Assembly: GCA_947044405.1 (NCBI GenBank)
Contig: CAMRHE010000077.1
Span: forward strand, 3,410,001-3,474,000
Length of the DNA: 64,000 nt
From: Leptodactylus fallax
Taxonomy: Eukaryota > Chordata > Amphibia > Anura > Leptodactylidae
Reading direction: 5' to 3'
Shown piece after piece: positions 19,481 through 64,000 of this stretch. Position 1 is the first letter of the stretch. Each line of letters opens with the position of its first letter. Under the pieces are notes generated by a model that did no database searches, was not told where the DNA came from, and saw only the letters and a list, made by a program, of their open reading frames with translations. Both the position numbers and the translations under genes were made by a program.

Positions 19481-20845
19481 CCATCTTGAACTAGGAAATG
19501 TGCAGGTCACCGGGGGAGTAAGAAAGAGTTGAGGACTATGTGTGAGTTGTAGTGGTTTGTTCACAGTAGTATGGCTATTTACTAGTCCCAGTCTAAGCCT
19601 GGTTCTGTGTGATATGCTGAAGCATAAAATACATGTTTTTTGGCTCTTTCATCATTATTTGGGGGTTTGGGTTGTACATGCTTGCTGAGGGGGGCCCATT
19701 TGGGTGGAGTTGGAGTTGGTAATAAAATGATTATACAATTATCTATATTAATTAGATGCCTAGTTAGCTGCATGTTTACATTTATAAGAATTCAATCACT
19801 GGTATGATTTTTGAGGAGCTGCACTACTTCTGTCTGACCATGGCTGTCAGCCGTTTATGAAAGAATAGCAGTCAATGTTTTGGCCTACCAACTTCACAGG
19901 ATGCACCGCTATATACAGTGCCTTGCGAAAGTATTCGGCCCCCTTGAACTTTTCAACCTTTTGCCACATTTCAGGCTTCAAACATAAGGATATAAAATTA
20001 AAAATTTTTTGGTGAAGAATCAACAACAAGTGGGACACAATTGTGAAGTGGAACGAAATTTATTGGTTATTTTAAACTTTTGTAAAAAATAAAAAACTGA
20101 AAAGTGGGGAGTACAATATTATTCGACCCCTTTACTTTCAGTGCAGCAAACTCACTCCAGAAGTTCAGTGAGGATCTCTGAATGATCCAATGTTGTCCTA
20201 AATGATTGATGATGATAAATATAATCCACCTGTGTGTAATCAAGTCTCCGTATAAATGCACCTGCTCTGTGATAGTTTCAGGGTTCTGTTTAAAGCGCAG
20301 AGAGCATCATGAAGACCAAGGAACACACCAGGCAGGTCCATGATACTGTTGTGGAGAAGTTTAAAGCTGGATTTGGATACAAAAAGATTTCCCAAACTTT
20401 AAACATCCCAAGGAGTACTGTGCAAGCGATCATATTGAAATGGAAGGAGTATCAGACCACTACAAATCTACCAAGACCCAGCCATCCCTCTAAACTTTCA
20501 TCTCAAACAAGGAGAAGACTGATCAGAGATGCAGCCAAGAGGCCCATGATCACTCTGGATGAACTGCAGAGATCTACAGCTGAGGTGGGAGAGTCTGTCC
20601 ATAGGACAACAATCAGTCGTACACTGCACAAATCTGGCCTTTCTGGAAGAGTGGCAAGAAGAAAGCCATTTCTCAAAGATATCCATAAAAAGTCTTGTTT
20701 AAAGTTTGCCACAAGCCACCTGGGAGACACACCAAACATATGGAAGAAGGTGCTCTGGTCAGATGAAACCAAAATCGAACTTTTTGGCCACAATGCAAAA
20801 CGATATGTTTGGCGTAAAAGCAACACAACTCATCACCCTGAACAC

Positions 20846-20908
20846 ACTATCCCCACTATCCCCACTATCCCCACTATCCCCACTATCCCCACTATCCCCA
20901 CTATCCCC
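20846..20908 (+). repeat. In-frame 9-bp minisatellite in the transposase
   Basis: Seven perfect units of ACTATCCCC encode seven TIP tripeptides after PEHTIP-type sequence of the transposase. The unit matches the native transposase sequence at this place (ACTATCCCCACTGTCATAC resumes at about 21411), so the array is an expansion of the target sequence on the left side of the insert. Confidence 0.95.
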
Positions 20909-20910
20909 AC

Positions 20911-21000
20911 TAAGCCAGCCAATTCACTTTGCTCTGTACTGATGAAGGACAACAATCCGGAAACAGCGCTGTATGCAGATAAGTGAAATTGGCTTGGCTA
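20911..21000 (+). ncRNA. Type I hammerhead ribozyme, copy 1
   Basis: Core CTGATGA at 20939-20945 and GAAA at 20960-20963. Stem I: TCTGTA (20933-20938) pairs with TGCAGA (20974-20979) and is extended by AAGCCAGCCAATTCACTT against AAGTGAAATTGGCTTGGCT (20981-20999). Stem II: GGA/TCC around a CAACAA loop, with a non-canonical A-G pair next to the core. Stem III: ACAG (20963-20966) pairs with CTGT (20969-20972) around a two-base loop, CG. The GTA cleavage triplet gives a cut after A20973. All invariant core bases are present. Very short stem III ribozymes are usually poor as monomers and work better as dimers. Confidence 0.85.
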
Positions 21001-21222
21001 AGATCCCTTTTGCTGTCTCAAGGCTCGGTGAGTCAAAAGCAAATTGAGGATCTGTTACATCCAATAGAGGGCGCATGAGCTCCCCAGCTCCTTTCCCATA
21101 ATGCCTTGTGATATGTAGATGCTAAGTAGAGGGCGAAAGGCAATTAAAATCTCTACACACCTTCACTGGTGCTCTCCTCAATGTGAGAGATTCTTGTCCC
21201 TAACCCACTCATTGCCTCCCAC

Positions 21223-21312
21223 TAAGCCAGCCAATTCACTTTGCTCTGTACTGATGAAGGACAACAATCCGGAAACAGCGCTGTATGCAGATAAGTGAAA
21301 TTGGCTTGGCTA
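21223..21312 (+). ncRNA. Type I hammerhead ribozyme, copy 2
   Basis: Same fold as the first, with CTGATGA at 21251-21257, GAAA at 21272-21275 and a predicted cut after A21285. The two cut sites are 312 nt apart, so self-cleavage of a transcript across both would release a 312-nt RNA with ends suitable for circularisation. It shows no change in the core compared with copy 1. Confidence 0.85.
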
Positions 21313-21981
21313 AGATCCCTTTTGCTGTCTCAAGGCTCGGTGAGTCAAAAGCAAATTGAGGATCTGTTACATCCAATAGAGGGCGCATGAGCTCCCCAGC
21401 TCCTTTCCCACTATCCCCACTGTCATACATGGTGGTGGCAGCATCTCTGGGATGGAGATTTATCTTCCAACAAGACAATGATCCCAAACATAAAGCAAAA
21501 TCTACAATGGAATGGTTCACAAATAAACGTCTCCAGGTGTTAGAATGGCAAGTCAAAGTCCAGACCTGAATCCAATCCAGAATCTGTGGAAAGAGCTGAA
21601 AACTGCTGTTCACAAACGCTCTCCATCCAACCTCACTGAGCTCCAGCTGTTTTCCAAGGAAGAATGGGCAAGAACTTCAGTCTCTCGATGTGCAAAGCTG
21701 ATAGAGACATACCCCAAGCGACTTGCAGCTGTAAGCGCAGCAAAAGGTGGCGCTACAAAGTATTAACTTAAGGAGGCCGAATAATTTGGCACGCCCCACT
21801 TTTCAGTTTTTTATTTTTTACAAAAGTTTAAAATATCCAATAAATTTCATTCCACTTCACGATTGTGTCCCAGTTGTTGTTGATTCTTCAACAAAAAAAT
21901 TAAAATTTTATATCCTTATGTTTGAAGCCTGAAATGTGGCAAAAGGTTGAAAAGTTCAAGGGGCCGAATACTTTCACAAGG

Positions 21982-21984
<3 letters not shown>

Positions 21985-22022
<38 letters not shown>
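21985..22022. repeat. (TA)n microsatellite at the Tc1 border
   Basis: About nineteen TA repeats directly after the right end of Tc1 copy B. The transposon's TA target duplication merges with this run. Confidence 0.9.
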
Positions 22023-25735: not shown

Positions 25736-27372
25736 CTGTTGTGCTAAAAAGTTTACATACCCCTGCAGTTTTTTTGTTTTTTTGGCCTTTTTTTCAGAGA
25801 ATATGAATGATAACACAACAACTTTTTCTCCACTCATGGTTAGTGGTTGGTTGAAGCCATTTATTGTCAAACTTCTGTGTTTTCTCTTTTTAAATCATAA
25901 TAACAACCAAAAACATCAAAATGACCCTGTTCAAAAGTTCACATACCCTGGTGATTTTGGCCTGATAACATGCCCAGAAGTTGACAGAAAGGGGTTTGAA
26001 TGGCTACTAAAGGTAACATCCTCACCTGTGACCTGTTTGCTTGTAATCGGTGTGTGCACAAAAGCTGAGTGAGTTTCTGGGATCCAGACAAACTGTTGCA
26101 TCTTTCCTCCAGTCACTGACATTTCTGGATTGTGAGTCATGGGGAAAGCAAAAGAATTGTCCATGGATCTACGGGATAAGGTAGGTGAACTGTATAAAAC
26201 AGGAAAGGGATACAAAAAGAAGGAATTGATAATGCCAGTCAGCAGTGTACAAACTGTGATTAACACATGGAAACTCAGGGGCTCTGTAAAATCCAAACCA
26301 CGGTCAGGTAGACCAAAAAAAATTTCGGCCACAACTGCCCGGAAAATTGTTCGGGATGCAAAGAAAAACCCACACATAACATCAACTGAAATACAGGACT
26401 CTCTGAAAACTATCGGTGTGGCTGTTTCAAGATGCACAAAAGGAGGCACTTGAAGAAAAATGGGCTGCATGGTCGAGTTGCCACAAGAAAGCCATTACTG
26501 CGCAAATGCCACAAAGAATCTCGCCTTCAATATGCCAAACAGCACAGAGACAAGCCTCAAAACTTCTGGAACAAGGTAATTTGGAGTGATGAGACAAAAA
26601 TCGAACTTTTTGGCCACAACCATAAATGTTACATTTGGAGAGGTGTCAACAAGACCTATGATGAAAGGAACACCATTCCTACTGTAAAGCACGGAGGTGG
26701 ATCACTGATGATGTGGGGATGTGTGAGCTTCAAAAGCACAGGAAACTTGGTCAAAGTTGAAGGAAAGAAGAATGCAGCACGTTATCAGCAAATACTGGAG
26801 GCAAATTTGCACTCATCAGCCAGGAAGCTGCGCATGGGACGTACTTGGACGTTCCAACATGACAAAGATCCAAAACACAAGGCCAAGTCGACCTGTCATT
26901 GGCTACAGCAGAAGAAAGTGAAGGTTCTGGAGTGGCCATCTCAGTCTCCTGACCCCAATATCATTGAGCCACTCTGAGGAGATCTCAAGTGCGCAGTACA
27001 TGCAAGACAGCCCAGGAATTTACAGGAACTGGAGACTTTTTGCCAAGACGAATGGGCAGTTTTACCATCTGAGAAAATAAAGAGCCTCATCCACAACTAC
27101 CACAAAAGACTTCAAGCTGTCATTGATGTTAGAGGGGGCAATACACGGTATTAAGAACTGGGGTATGTGAACTTTTGAACAGGGTCATTTTGATGTTTTT
27201 GGTAGTCATTATGATTTAAAAAGAGAAAACACAGAAGTTTGACAATAAATGGCTTCAACCAACCACTAACCATGAGTGGAGAAAAAGTTTTTGTGTTATC
27301 ATTTATATTCTCTGAAAAAAGGCCAAAAAATCAAAAAATCTGCCAGGGTATGTAAACTTTTTAGCACAACTG
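25736..27372 (+). mobile_element. Tc1-type transposon copy C, IR/DR type, nearly full length
   Basis: TA flanks both ends (25734-25735 and 27373-27374). The ends begin with CTGTTGTGCTAAAAAGTTTA and its mirror. About 210 bases in, an inner repeat GTTCAAAAGTTCACATACCC repeats the outer core AAAGTTTACATACCC, the double direct repeat arrangement seen in Sleeping Beauty and Frog Prince type elements. The size of 1637 bp is normal for the group. It holds one transposase copy on plus with a frameshift and a stop. Confidence 0.95.
26139..27154 (+). pseudogene. Tc1 transposase, frameshifted (copy C)
   Basis: The start MGKAKELSMDLRDKVGELYK begins the paired-like domain; the linker carries SKPRSGRPKKISATTARKIV, a GRPR-like motif. 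A frameshift lies near 26435 (between AVSRCTK and the KKNGLHGRVATRKP frame). The catalytic WSDETKIELFGHN is intact. The second aspartate region is HDKDPKHKAKS instead of DNDPKH. The glutamate is kept (SPDPNIIEPL), but the tryptophan right after is TGA, so a stop cuts off the last 60 residues, which end VRGGNTRY. A few changes only, but inactive. Confidence 0.93.
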
Positions 27373-40143: not shown

Positions 40144-41313
40144 CCCTGCTGTTCTGTTCGGTTCTACTATACACATATAATGTTCCGGTCATTTTTGCCC
40201 GGGCCTATTAAAGTCTGGATTTTTAACTAATTTAAGTGTTTTATTTGAATTTATTTTGCATTATTATACTGTATGTGAACATGGTTGTTCATAAACAAAT
40301 GAAAAATGAAATCAAAAACTTAATTTTTATTTTTTTTGTGTCAAAAAATGTTACATGGCCTTATTGCATTATTCATATATATTTTACATTTGCACAAAAA
40401 AAAAATCTTTATAATAAAAAAAAAATAAAATAAAAAAGTCTAGTTTTTTCTATATAAAATGTGAAATAAGGTTCAAGGTGCTAAATTTACTGTTTGCATT
40501 CGTCACAAGTATAATTTACATGTCTTTTTCATAAGTACTTTGCACATTTGCAACATATCACATTTGATTTGTGATTACTTGATGTTGGACAGAAGGAGCA
40601 TCGTTTCCGTTTTAGGCTGGTTGTACTGCTGGTGGAGGCCGTAGGTATCGTCGCAGTGCTAGCGAAAGCCCTTGGTTCACTTTCTTCAGCATGCTGTTGG
40701 ATCCTGTGGACAATGGCTGCAGCTCCATCATCTCTGGGTGTTACTTTTCTTTGTTCAATATATGGGCTAACCAGTGATTTTCCCAACTCCTCTAAAAAAA
40801 TTCTTCTTTTATATAGTTTATTTTTGTTCCAATTTGGGTCTATTTCACGCCATAACACAAATGCATTGTATGCCGACACATCAAGAATGTTGTAAAAATC
40901 AACCATTGGCCACCGATTAGTTTTGCGTTTACAGGTGTCCATCTACAGTATCATAATTTGAAAATGTATGTATGTGTAACTCTGCATGGACCAAAAGGAC
41001 CTAGATAAATTGATAAATAGTAGTAGATGAACTAAATAGACCAAAATGAGTTTATAACTCCTTTATTTAAAAAAAAAAATGGCTGGAGATTAGTATAAAA
41101 GGCTATCGGTCATTTTTGACCGAACAGTACAAGTGTAAAAAAAGACGTGGAGCAAAAAGTAAACAAAAAATAAATAAATAAAAACTGCTATTAGTAAGAA
41201 CCCCTCAAATGAGGAAAAGTCAATGAACCACAAGTTTCAGAACTGCATAATGAATATTTTAAAAAATATTAAATTTCAAATTCGGTCATTTTTGACCGAA
41301 CAGAACAGCAGGG
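40144..41313 (-). mobile_element. piggyBac-type deletion derivative with TTAA duplication
   Basis: TTAA at 40140-40143 and 41314-41317 flanks exact inverted ends CCCTGCTGTTCTGTTCGGT (left) and ACCGAACAGAACAGCAGGG (right). TTAA duplication is the hallmark of piggyBac. The imperfect palindrome CGGTCATTTTTGACCG lies at the right end (41283) and again at 41107; a variant CGGTCATTTTTGCCCGG is at 40186. At 1170 bp it is about half the length of an autonomous element; only the C-terminal part of the transposase remains. Confidence 0.95.
40529..40942 (-). pseudogene. piggyBac transposase, C-terminal 137 residues
   Basis: The frame starts MDTCKRKTNRWPMVDFYNIL, which matches the conserved end of the catalytic domain in piggyBac and PGBD proteins (the KRRTNRWP type motif followed by a D-x-x-x-x-NAF-x-x-W segment). 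It goes on through YKRRIFLEELGKSLVSPYIEQR. After a Ser/Thr-rich linker, the end is a cysteine-rich module with CSFCPT, CCKCAKYL and one more cysteine, the usual C-terminal zinc-binding domain. All catalytic aspartates upstream are deleted. The frame itself is not broken, so the truncation looks recent. Confidence 0.93.
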
Positions 41314-58439: not shown

Positions 58440-58890
58440 TATAGTGCACAGTATAATGTCCAGTTTAGTACCCACACACACAGCATAATTCCCTCTTGTG
58501 GCCCTCACACAGTATAATGTCGCTCCTTATGCTCAGAGACAGTATAATGGGCCATTATGACCCCACATACTATATTAGCCCTTATGCTCCCACACAGTAT
58601 AATGCCCTCTTATTCTTCACCCCAGTATAATGGCCCCATTATGTGCCCATGAAGTATAATGGCCCACTTATTTCCCTCATAGAGTTTAATGACCCTCTTA
58701 TACCCAGACAAATTATAATAGCCCTCTTATGCCCAGACACAGTATATTGACACCCTTATGCCCTATACACCGTAATAGCCGTCCATAGACCCCCACATTA
58801 TAGTTTGTCGACAAACTATAATGGTCCCCTAATGCCCCACAAAGTATAATGGACTCCTTATGTCCCAAAACAGTATATTAGCCCCCTTAT
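58440..58890. repeat. Degenerate minisatellite of about 31 bp
   Basis: About fourteen units built on CCCACACAGTATAATGGCCC followed by CTTATGC. It is preceded by a hAT-like terminal motif. The core CACACAGTATAATG is the reverse complement of the unit in the 11.27 kb array. A looser series with CACTCAGTAATGGTGCC continues at 58979-59060. Confidence 0.85.
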
Positions 58891-60189: not shown

Positions 60190-61000
60190 CCCCCTCATCA
60201 GTTATTATAGTGCCTCCTTATAAATAATAGTCCCTGCTTATAAATAGTATCTCTTATCAGTAATAGCTCTCCCTTATCAGTAATACCCTGTTATAAATAA
60301 TAGTACTTCCTTATAAATAGTTCCCCCTTATTAATAATAGCCCTCTTATAAATAATAGTTCCTCTTAGAAATAATAATCCACATTATCAATATTAGCCCT
60401 CTTAAAAATAATACCACTTATAAATAATAGCTGCTTTAACAATACTCACATTATAATGTTTCCCTCTTATAAATAAAAGCTCCCACATTATAATAGCCAC
60501 CTCGTATATAAAATAATTTCCCCCCTTATTATAGGTCTTTTATATATAGTTCCTCCATTATATAAAATAGCCTACCGTATGAGTTTCCCACTTATAATAG
60601 CCCTTCTTATATGTAATAATTTTCTCTTATAATAGCCCCTTTATATTTAATAGCGTCCTCTCCTCCCTTATAAATAATATCCCCCCTGATATATAACAGC
60701 CACCCCCATATATAAAACAGTCTCTTCCATTATAAATAATAGCCCCCTTCTAAATAATAGTTCCCAGTTTATATATAATAGTTCCTTTATTTTATATAAT
60801 AGCCCCCTATATATCAGTATCCCCTTATATATAATAGTTACCCCTTATATAGCCCCCTTTATATAGATTATTTTCCCCCTTTCAATAGCACCCTTAAATA
60901 TAATAGTTCCCCTTATAATAGCCCCCTTATACATAACTGCCTCCCCCTTATAATAGCCCCCCTTATATATAACAATCTCCCCTTATAACAGCTCCCCTTA
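60190..61000. repeat. Degenerate minisatellite, left block
   Basis: Units of about 20-25 bases built on CCCCTTATAATAGCCCCC and CTTATAAATAATAGTT, with much variation in length. The array is split by Tc1 copy E and goes on at 62624. Confidence 0.9.
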
Positions 61001-61002
61001 TA

Positions 61003-62621
61003 CAGTACAGACCAAAAGTTTGGACACACCTTCTCATTCCAAGAGTTTTCTGTATTTTCATGACTATAAAAATTGTAGATTCACACTGAAGGCCTCAAAA
61101 CTATGAATTAACACATGTGGAATTATATACTTAACAAAAAAGTGTGAAACAACTGAAAATATGTCTTATATTCTAGGTTCTTCAAAATAGCCACCTTTTG
61201 CTTTGATTACTGCTTTGCACACTCTTGGCATTCTCTTGATGAACTTCAAGAGGTAGTCACCTGAAATGGTTTTCACTTCACAGGTGTGCCCTGTCAGGTT
61301 TAATAAGTGGGATTTCTTGCCTTATAAATGGGGTTGGGACCATCAGTTGTGTTGTTCAGAAGTCAGGTGGATACACAGCTGATAGTCCTACTGAATGGAG
61401 TGTTAGAATTTGTATTATGGCAAGAAAAAAGCAGCTAAGTAAAGAAAAACGAGTGGCCATCATTACTTTAAGAAATGAAGGTCAGTCAGTCCGAAAAATT
61501 GGGAAAACTTTGAAAGTGTCCCCAAGTGCAGTGGCAAAAACCATCAAGCGCTACAAAGAAACTGGCTCACATGAGGACCGCCCCAGGAAAGGAAGACCAA
61601 GAGTCACCTCTACTGCGGAGGATAAGTTCATCCGAGTCACCAGCCTCAGAAATCGCAGGTTAACAGCAGCTCAGATTAGAGACCAGGTCAATGCCACAGA
61701 GTTCTAGCAACAGACACATCTCTACAACAACTGTTAAGAGGAGACTGTGTGCAGCAGGCCTTCATGGTAAAATAGCTGCTAGGAAACCACTGCTAAGGAC
61801 AGGCAACAAGCAGAAGAGACTTGTTTGGGCTAAAAAACACAAGGAATGGAAATTAGACCTGTGGAAATCAGTGCTTTGGTCTGAGGAGTCCACATTTGAG
61901 TTCTTTTCTGTGTCTTTGTGCGACGCAGAAAAGGTGAATGAATGGACTCTACATGCCTGGTTCCCACCGTGAAGCATGGAGGAGGAGGTGTGATGGTGTG
62001 GGGATGCTTTGCTGGTGACACTGTTGGGAATTTATTCAAAATTGAAGGAATACTGAACCAGCATGGTTACCACAGCATCTTGCAGCGGCATGCTATCCCA
62101 TCCGGTTTGCGTTTAGTTGGACCATCATTTATTTTTCAACAGGACAATGACCCCAAACACACCTCCAGACTGTGTAAGGGCTATTTGACCAAGAAGGAGA
62201 GTGATGGGGTGCTACGCCAGATGACCTGGCCTCCACAGTCACCAGACCTGAACCCAATCGAGACGGTTTGAGGTGAGCTGGACCGCAGAGTGAAGGCAAA
62301 AGGGCCAACAAGTGCTAAGCATCTCTGGGAACTCCTTCAAGACTGTTGGAAGACCATTTCAGTTGACTACCTCTTGAAGCTCATCAAGAGAAATGCCAAG
62401 AGTGTGCAAAGCAGTAATCAAAGCAAAAGGTGGCTACTTTGAAGAACCTAGAATATAAGACATATTTTCAGTTGTTTCACACTTTTTTGTTAAGTATATA
62501 ATTCCACATGTGTTAATTCATAGTTTTGAGGCCTTCAGTGTGAATCTACAATTTTTATAGTCATGAAAATACAGAAAACTCTTGGAATGAGAAGGTGTGT
62601 CCAAACTTTTGGTCTGTACTG
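61003..62621 (+). mobile_element. Tc1-type transposon copy E, full length, inserted in the minisatellite
   Basis: TA (61001-61002 and 62622-62623) flanks the ends CAGTACAGACCAAAAGTTTG and its mirror. About 190 bases of inverted arms match closely (GAAGGCCTCAAAACTATGAA, CACATGTGGAATTATATAC). At 1619 bp it is complete. The match to a Tc1 family known from fish, frogs and lampreys is recalled, not searched. Because flanking repeats are of one type, the insertion into the array is certain. Confidence 0.95.
61417..62458 (+). pseudogene. Tc1 transposase, frameshifted and point-mutated (copy E)
   Basis: The start MARKKQLSKEKRVAIITLRN opens the paired-like domain with the helix-turn-helix GQSVRKIGKTLKVSPSAVAK, and the linker is DRPRKGRPRVTS. 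A 2-base loss near 61700 shifts the frame (NATEF then stop; the other frame goes on from SSNRHISTTTVKRR). The first catalytic motif is VLWSEESTFEF: aspartate has become glutamate. A short deletion follows. FQQDNDPKHTS and SPDLNPIE are intact, but the tryptophan three residues after the glutamate is TGA. A further one-base insertion precedes the C-terminus, which returns to frame at KAKGGYFEEPRI. Inactive. Confidence 0.93.
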
Positions 62622-62623
62622 TA

Positions 62624-63300
62624 TATAAAATAGTTCCCCCTTATAATAGCTCCCTTATATAACAGTCTACCCCTTATAATAGCCCCCTTATATGTAACAG
62701 TCTCCCCCTTATAATAGACCCCTTATATATAATAGTTCCACTTATAATAGTCCCCTTATATATAACAGTCTCCTCCTTATAATAGCCCCCTTATAAATAA
62801 TAGTTTCCCTTTATATATAGTAGCCCCCTTATATATAACAGTGCCACCTTGTAAATAATAGTTCTTCCCTTATATATTAGTTCTTCCCTTATAAATAATA
62901 GTTCATCCCTTATTTAGAATAGTTTCAACCTTATAATAGCCCTCCTTATTTGTAATAGTTCTCTATTACATTTAAGGGGGAGCTATTGTATATTATATAT
63001 AATATATTATATATTGCCCCCTTATACAAATTCCCTTATATATTATAGTTCCTCCCTTACTTATAACAGCACCTTTATAAATAATAGTTCCCCCTTATAA
63101 TAGCCCAATTATACATAATTGTATCCCCTTATAATAGCCCCCATTATAAATAATAGTACCCCCTTATAATAGCCCTCCTCATAAAGGGGGGGTACTATTA
63201 TTTATAATGGGGAATATTATAAGGGGGTACAATTATTTATAATGGGGGCTATTATAAGGGGGAACTATTATTTATAAAGGTGCTATTTTTAATAAGAGAG
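62624..63300. repeat. Degenerate minisatellite, right block, with inverted end
   Basis: Same unit type as 60190-61000 (CTTATAATAGCCCCCTTAT). From about 63180 the units are on the other strand (GGGGGTACTATTATTTATAA), so 63120-63290 is a large imperfect hairpin. A short TATA-rich palindrome lies at 62985-63015. Confidence 0.9.
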
Positions 63301-63313
63301 GAACTATGATATA

Positions 63314-64000
<687 letters not shown>

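Follow-up and report, generated by a model that had tools for sequence, protein, structure and literature searches.

Judged from its sequence, the 64-kb window (the whole stretch of Leptodactylus fallax DNA that was analysed) holds a non-autonomous retrozyme, inserted in full and flanked by a target duplication of its own. Insertion scars, start sites of copying and, at most informative loci, a uniform template can be seen directly in this element and its relatives in the genome. Our preferred explanation, to which we assign a probability of about 0.8, is a non-autonomous non-LTR retrozyme whose RNA serves as template for a Penelope-like RT/GIY-YIG enzyme, starting at the two 3′ ends left by a cut staggered by 13 nt. 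The observation made in an earlier sequence-only reading, two tandem hammerhead ribozymes inside a Tc1 transposase, was confirmed, and its interpretation as a truncated Penelope-like or retrozyme copy was supported in part.

The insertion and its Tc1 host

The retrozyme insertion occupies positions 20909–21410 (+), as delimited by alignment of its copies and comparison with other loci; each edge (~20909 and 21410) is uncertain by a few nucleotides because of short target overlaps at both junctions. These 502 nt amount to 1.6 identical copies of a 312-nt unit, laid out as 65 nt, one full unit between the predicted ribozyme cut sites (20974–21285, +; GC 46.5%) and 125 nt of the next unit, and the insertion is of the single-arm type described below. 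The two unit copies are identical over 193 bases (20906–21098 and 21218–21410). Units alone make up the insert and an RT/GIY-YIG reading frame is absent from it, in agreement with the earlier remark that it holds no reverse transcriptase.

The host is a decayed Tc1 element (19912–21992, +) that is interrupted by the insert and ends in terminal inverted repeats (19940–20134 and 21769–21963) with 92% identity in blastn. Pfam domains HTH_Tnp_Tc3_2 and HTH_SB were found in 20294–20986. The best protein matches of the element show 89–93% identity over ~82% of the query, the named ones being mostly from fishes and some from Xenopus.

The right copy of a 13-nt target duplication, CACTATCCCCACT, lies at 21409–21421 (+). 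On the left, the same 13-mer starts at 20845 (20845–20857) and again every 9 nt, at 20854 and onwards to 20899, before it recurs at 21409. Joining the flanks at one CACTATCCCCACT copy restores HTIPTV, the reading of uninterrupted Tc1 relatives, from which we conclude that a 13-nt duplication flanks the insert and that the left copy of this duplication has expanded to 7.6 repeats of a 9-mer (20845–20912, +; 9-nt period, 100% in TRF). Among the 120 Tc1 relatives listed of 1,017 found, the motif [TS][IV]P[TS] with its flanks is present in 80 and IPTIPT in none. The perfect array, CACTATCCC × 7.6, matches the Tc1 frame and reads IPT seven times; its 9-mer is obtained when copies of the 13-nt duplication overlap by their 4-nt terminal repeat. 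A search of viral contigs for the empty Tc1 site found none.

As the Tc1 terminal repeats have diverged by 8% while the two unit copies show no difference, the insertion is probably much younger than its Tc1 host, though the Tc1 repeats need not have been identical at the outset.

Hammerhead motifs and their predicted folds

Two type I hammerhead cores of the form CTGATGA ... GAAA ... GTA lie where they had been placed before, at 20939–20973 and 21251–21285 (both +), and the predicted cut sites, after A20973 and A21285, are 312 nt apart. Each copy combines a 23-bp stem I, CTGATGA, a 3-bp stem II, GAAA, a short stem III and the GTA triplet. The earlier description of stem I as 6 bp with a further extension stands, the extension being 17 bp long and following an internal loop, while an A–G mismatch at the base of stem II (10.1/11.1) had been missed. 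A 4-bp stem III with a two-base loop, as originally drawn, fails: it is disallowed under nearest-neighbour rules, the monomer alternative being 3 bp with a four-base loop. Stem III plus its loop, ACAGCGCUGU, is a perfect 10-nt palindrome able to pair between copies (ACAGCGCTGT, at 20963–20972, +, and again at 21275–21284), and would form the common stem III of a predicted dimeric hammerhead; alone, such a palindrome is weak evidence, with odds of ~1 in 4 given a 4-bp stem and two loop bases.

A type I descriptor (stems I, II and III of at least 5, 3 and 2 bp, mismatch permitted at the stem II base), written after the motif had been seen, matched these two sites alone when both strands of the window were searched, and 300 first-order Markov resamplings of the window gave a mean of 0.013 matches. 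The 93-nt fold had z = −4.2, with 0 of 200 shuffles equally stable. The covariance-model search suggested along with the sequence-only reading proved uninformative: Rfam found no hammerhead in the window, at the gathering threshold or at E ≤ 10, and equally missed the hammerheads of three minimal-motif Penelope loci and of a 22-unit retrozyme locus, so its null result in the window is no evidence against a hammerhead and Rfam was dropped as an arbiter. Exact hammerhead patterns run against prokaryote and viral contigs gave three core-letter matches, which on inspection had no stem I and were taken as chance. The insert had no blastn match in phages and plasmids, two translated unit frames had none in the protein database, and the longest open stretch in six frames of the doubled unit was 65 aa.

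Folds were predicted with neither tertiary contacts nor core energies. On these terms, a single copy folded as a hammerhead is 3.0 kcal/mol less stable than its best fold, where C3-U4-G5 is base-paired to the stem III strand. Two copies, co-folded without constraint, adopt the dimeric hammerhead (−76.9 against 2 × −31.7 kcal/mol); a gain of stability from dimerising is common to all self-complementary hairpins. This dimer, now between two copies within one molecule, is also the minimum-energy structure predicted for the 502-nt insert transcript, with pair probabilities of 0.92–1.0 in stem III (20963–20972 with 21275–21284), 0.75–0.98 in stem I and 0.73–0.85 in stem II. A tandem transcript is thereby predicted to fold as a dimeric hammerhead. 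In a monomeric circle the blocked form has a pair probability of ~0.94, and the complete circle shows no excess stability over shuffled sequences (z −1.0, 12 of 100 equally stable). Since the stem III strand of a monomer is predicted to block that monomer's core, the ribozyme would be off in the circle and on in the multimer, which makes dimerisation a candidate on/off switch for a natural circular RNA.

Small Penelope-associated hammerheads reportedly cleave as dimers. The present motif resembles those of Lunse 2017 in its predicted dimeric action (going by the title) and is unlike them in its 23-bp stem I with an internal loop and its non-autonomous unit. In the available portion of PMC7229834, amphibian retrozymes are described as having a weak helix III, with a palindromic loop in one axolotl family, and as acting better as dimers; the newt satellite hammerhead described there, with its ~330-bp tandem unit and dimer-dependent ribozyme, is alike by description.

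The retrozyme family, its scars and its template

The 312-nt units form a young, dispersed, near-identical non-coding family with more than 1,000 ribozyme copies, and the repeat family anticipated from the window is thus real. In the 2.50-Gb genome (2,215 contigs), at least 219 unit matches were found with 40 of 594 candidates scored, those listed being mostly 99–100% identical. Exact matches to a 29-nt ribozyme stretch numbered 1,860 genome-wide, and the reversed control gave 0. By hand count, the first 100 listed 29-nt matches formed 57 clusters on contigs C1–C8, 12 of them minus-then-plus and none plus-then-minus.

We examined 39 loci, namely the window and 38 others fetched from the best-scoring list, a sample biased to intact copies. 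They hold between 1.6 and 22.6 units each, and 67 of their 118 full units, window included, are identical to the window's. The 312-nt monomer proposed in the sequence-only reading holds. At the 38 other loci, the blocks consist of units alone, besides short central filler and one 175-nt filler at L036. The latter (L036:3453–3627) is G-rich and A-rich low-complexity sequence between the arms and possibly an assembly artefact.

A direct flanking repeat of at least 10 nt, with a mode of 13, bounds 33 of the 39 loci, and was found in 3 of 780 mismatched left–right flank pairs; these 33 repeats have an AT fraction of 0.69. A duplication of this length is absent at the other six (L015, L022, L031, L033, L037 and L046). 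Locus L021 sits in a Tc1 element, and its uninterrupted site was found once in the window, from 21687.

Single-arm insertions account for 16 loci. The remaining 23 are two-arm, head-to-head twins, every one of them minus-then-plus with the 5′ ends inward. At the other loci, arm 3′ ends gather at two positions, which we take as starts of reverse transcription: the main site A at monomer positions 138–144 (21111–21117, +, in the window; 27 of 62 arm ends) and a second site B at 223–234 (21196–21207, +; 18 of 62). Single arms ended 13 times at A and three times at B (n = 16), the window's own end, at 125, lying off both main peaks. With bins set after the arm ends had been seen (A 125–145, B 216–234), exactly one arm fell in the A bin in 22 of the 23 twins, compared with a mean of 11.7 under random pairing (P 1e-5, 200,000 trials). 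The combination A plus B was present in 17 of 23, the exceptions being L019, L020, L030, L031, L035 and L040. A bin-free test agreed: twin ends lay within 20 nt of each other in 1 of 23 pairs, against 9.5 under random pairing (P 1.5e-5).

Arm 5′ ends are scattered over the unit, and 58 of the 62 arms cross a cut junction. More than one lap is covered by 55 arms, with a median of 2.1 and a maximum of 15.3 laps. The central joins of the twins show an overlap of 1–6 nt in 16 of 23 cases and filler of 3 to 175 nt in the other seven. In L019 the minus arm stops at the predicted cut site (monomer position 1), which is where a run-off from cleaved linear RNA would stop. Five blast-defined 5′ ends read 1, though some of these continue through the palindrome.

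Variants within loci bear on the template. C46T, A192T or C44T is present in every covering unit at six loci (L039, 9/9; L042, 3/3; L044, 3/3; L045, 7/7; L046, 7/7; L049, 3/3), and both arms carry the variant at the five of these with two arms. At L036 the variant is found in 6 of 7 units, the odd one adjoining the low-complexity filler. L016 carries G73T in 2 of 5 units, one per arm, which indicates a mixed template. At eight loci some but not all units lack T35, and 185 further variants were seen once. Since units of both arms have variants in common, one RNA, circle or multimer, appears to have been copied round and round at most informative loci. Clusters of single-base deletions in one arm of L024 and L045, next to perfect or near-perfect units, are probably long-read errors.

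Penelope elements and a proposed route of copying

A search of the genome for GIY-YIG found at least 112 matches among the 150 candidates scored of 647. Our sample of Penelope families consists of 26 stretches taken around GIY-YIG matches (25 places), plus one edge. When six long frames were scanned with Pfam, RT and GIY-YIG both exceeded the cut-offs in L052, L054 and L055, GIY-YIG was accompanied by a weak RT in L051, and GIY-YIG was found alone in L050 and L053. Long uninterrupted GIY-YIG frames of Penelope type are present in L050 (882 aa) and L051 (790 aa), so that autonomous Penelope elements may still exist in this genome.

One family, that of L053–L057, accounts for 18 of the 26 stretches, and CTGATGAAG...GAAA is intact on the element strand in eight; the Penelope hammerhead of this genome, too, begins CTGATGAAG. 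The 3′ ends of the L053–L057 family (n = 21) fall into two classes ~40 nt apart, with seven at reference positions 1118–1124, 11 at 1152–1166 and three elsewhere. Three Penelope twins had both flanks in view. Two of them, L056 and L053, have exact 13-bp duplications (TTGCTGATACTAA and GTGTGAATAAGAC, respectively) and one arm at each end class; the third, L057, has a 17-nt match, up to 7 nt of which may belong to an arm end, with arms at the longer class and at 1100. L054 shows a 9-nt flank match, and L055 none. Retrozymes and Penelopes of this genome therefore have in common the duplication length, the head-to-head arms and the two alternative 3′ start sites (Penelope twins n = 3), as insertion by Penelope machinery would leave them, and this match of scars points to who moves the retrozymes.

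The Penelope link drawn in the sequence-only reading holds for the scars and does not extend to sequence likeness: blastn of the unit against the 26 fetched stretches (E ≤ 10) gave matches of at most 20 nt alone. Derivation of the unit from a fetched Penelope was accordingly rejected. The proposal that the window holds a truncated Penelope copy gives way to that of a complete retrozyme insertion with its own 13-nt duplication, as the insert has neither an RT plus GIY-YIG frame nor relatedness to the sampled stretches. The retrozyme start sites A and B carry the motif CTTGTnnnTA; that Penelope ends have it in common with them was also rejected, as it is absent from the fetched Penelope ends.

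From these observations we infer transcription, ribozyme cutting, circle formation and the identity of the enzyme, as follows. Tandem transcripts would fold as a dimeric hammerhead, which would cut itself into 312-nt RNAs that are then closed into circles. The two strands of the target would be cut 13 nt apart by a Penelope-like RT/GIY-YIG protein. Each 3′ end so exposed would then act as a primer on the RNA, one starting at A and the other at B, and be extended through at least one lap. In a twin copy, the two cDNA ends would join by microhomology; in a single-arm copy, as in the window, one cDNA would join the other side of the break.

The template may instead have been linear, a multimeric transcript read from a genomic array and left uncut, with Penelope machinery still doing the copying, a possibility that we take seriously without favouring it. 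Unprocessed RNA is the main template in the purified Penelope system, where ribozyme mutants insert normally (PMC11167929, in its available sections), and genomic arrays are themselves near-identical, so that variants common to the units of one insert are no proof of a circle. At L016, moreover, the units next to those with G73T lack it, as a mixed multimer would give; this locus points rather to a linear template and slightly lowers our probability for the preferred explanation. A circle accounts more simply for single insertions whose arms run to 15 laps (L023, where every unit equals the window's) and for 5′ ends spread over the unit, and single-unit RNAs are the expected ribozyme product. 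We consider it unlikely that the ribozyme is a non-functional relic with no part in the spread: despite the A–G mismatch at the stem II base, the weak stem III and a monomer hammerhead fold 3.0 kcal/mol above the best one, only 4 of 159 units show a core-position change, albeit at loci selected for high identity, and the best predicted fold of a tandem transcript is the dimeric hammerhead. In the sections available, the Penelope ribozyme is dispensable for insertion in vitro (PMC11167929), which would suit a relic, but an axolotl ribozyme with a U–U mismatch at the same place still cleaves (PMC7229834).

Other movers fit less well. Spread of a satellite through unequal crossing-over or DNA circles could yield tandem identical units, up to 15 laps per arm, and is nevertheless hardly credible given that a target duplication encloses 33 of 39 loci, all of these being dispersed insertions, that arm ends cluster at two positions and that 23 loci are inverted head to head. 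LINEs produce target duplications in this length range together with inverted 5′ ends. Movement by a LINE through L1-type twin priming, which these features would allow, is still very unlikely in our view: no poly(A) or simple tail was seen by eye at any of 62 arm ends, a LINE-mobilised SINE being expected to carry a 3′ tail, the outer ends fall mostly at two internal sites, and the layout is common to the Penelope twin copies of the genome (n = 3). A more elaborate form of the preferred explanation seems improbable as a whole. In it, the Penelope RT/endonuclease opens 13-nt 3′ overhangs, both ends roll round the same ribozyme circle (at A and B), retrozymes are the 'SINEs' of Penelopes and, in the window, the telomerase-like RT also added the 9-mers by re-annealing the CACT ends of the overhang (13 minus 4 = 9). 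A telomerase-like origin of the 9-mer array, taken alone, was set aside, a pre-existing or later slipped minisatellite in the Tc1 being simpler; no 9-mer array accompanies the duplication of L036, which likewise has a 4-nt terminal repeat.

The element itself is of a known kind, a retrozyme, and Penelopes have already been proposed as its helper. With its type I hammerhead motif, tandem 312-nt units, GC content of 0.465 (above 45 and below 50%), lack of a long frame and dispersed insertions with target duplications >4 bp, it is like the metazoan non-LTR retrozymes, such as axolotl Rtz331 and Rtz353, for which the accessible text of PMC7229834 gives a type I hammerhead, a non-coding tandem unit of 150–450 bp, GC <50% and duplications >4 bp. 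That text makes no mention of head-to-head twin inserts that combine two start sites with a ~13-bp duplication, and the likeness is one of description. The same text names Penelopes as a strong candidate helper of retrozymes, both having type I hammerheads, being in tandem and coexisting. As excerpted, a 2020 review states that the repeats show no motif that reveals the partner, and a 2024 review still lists LINEs or Penelopes as partner.

In the available sections on Penelopes, the purified Anolis enzyme (Poseidon) cuts and extends both target strands, and two internal RNA starts define a 'tail' (PMC11167929); an Adineta Penelope has an inverted pLTR, with a tail on one, and duplications of 8–10 bp at several copies and none at others (PMC3846280). 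The retrozymes are like these Penelopes in their type I hammerhead and target duplications, and also in two internal RT start sites, putative cutting and extension of both strands, inverted copies and an optional tail on one. They are unlike Penelopes, as far as those sections go, in that A and B lie ~88 nt apart whereas the Penelope tail measures 30–40 nt, and in having no RT/GIY-YIG frame; their duplications also differ from the 8–10 bp of Adineta. We found no description of a Penelope-type scar on a retrozyme in the literature searched, most subscription papers lying outside that search. The 13-bp duplication with head-to-head, two-start arms, common to the Penelopes of the same genome, is direct structural evidence for one candidate mover, and the scar test is applicable to any genome with retrozymes. 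The loci also document, in many natural examples, the way in which a Penelope-type enzyme would finish its reactions.

Elsewhere in the window, further decayed Tc1/mariner-like pieces were detected with Pfam at 641–1138 (−), 26136–26977 (+), 61243–61707 (+) and 63669–63965 (+), and dense minisatellites, TATAATAGCCCCCTTATA-like and related, fill 60207–63277 and 58447–58890. An open frame at 40529–40942 (−) had no Pfam match, and its cysteine-rich end looks like that of a piggyBac transposase.
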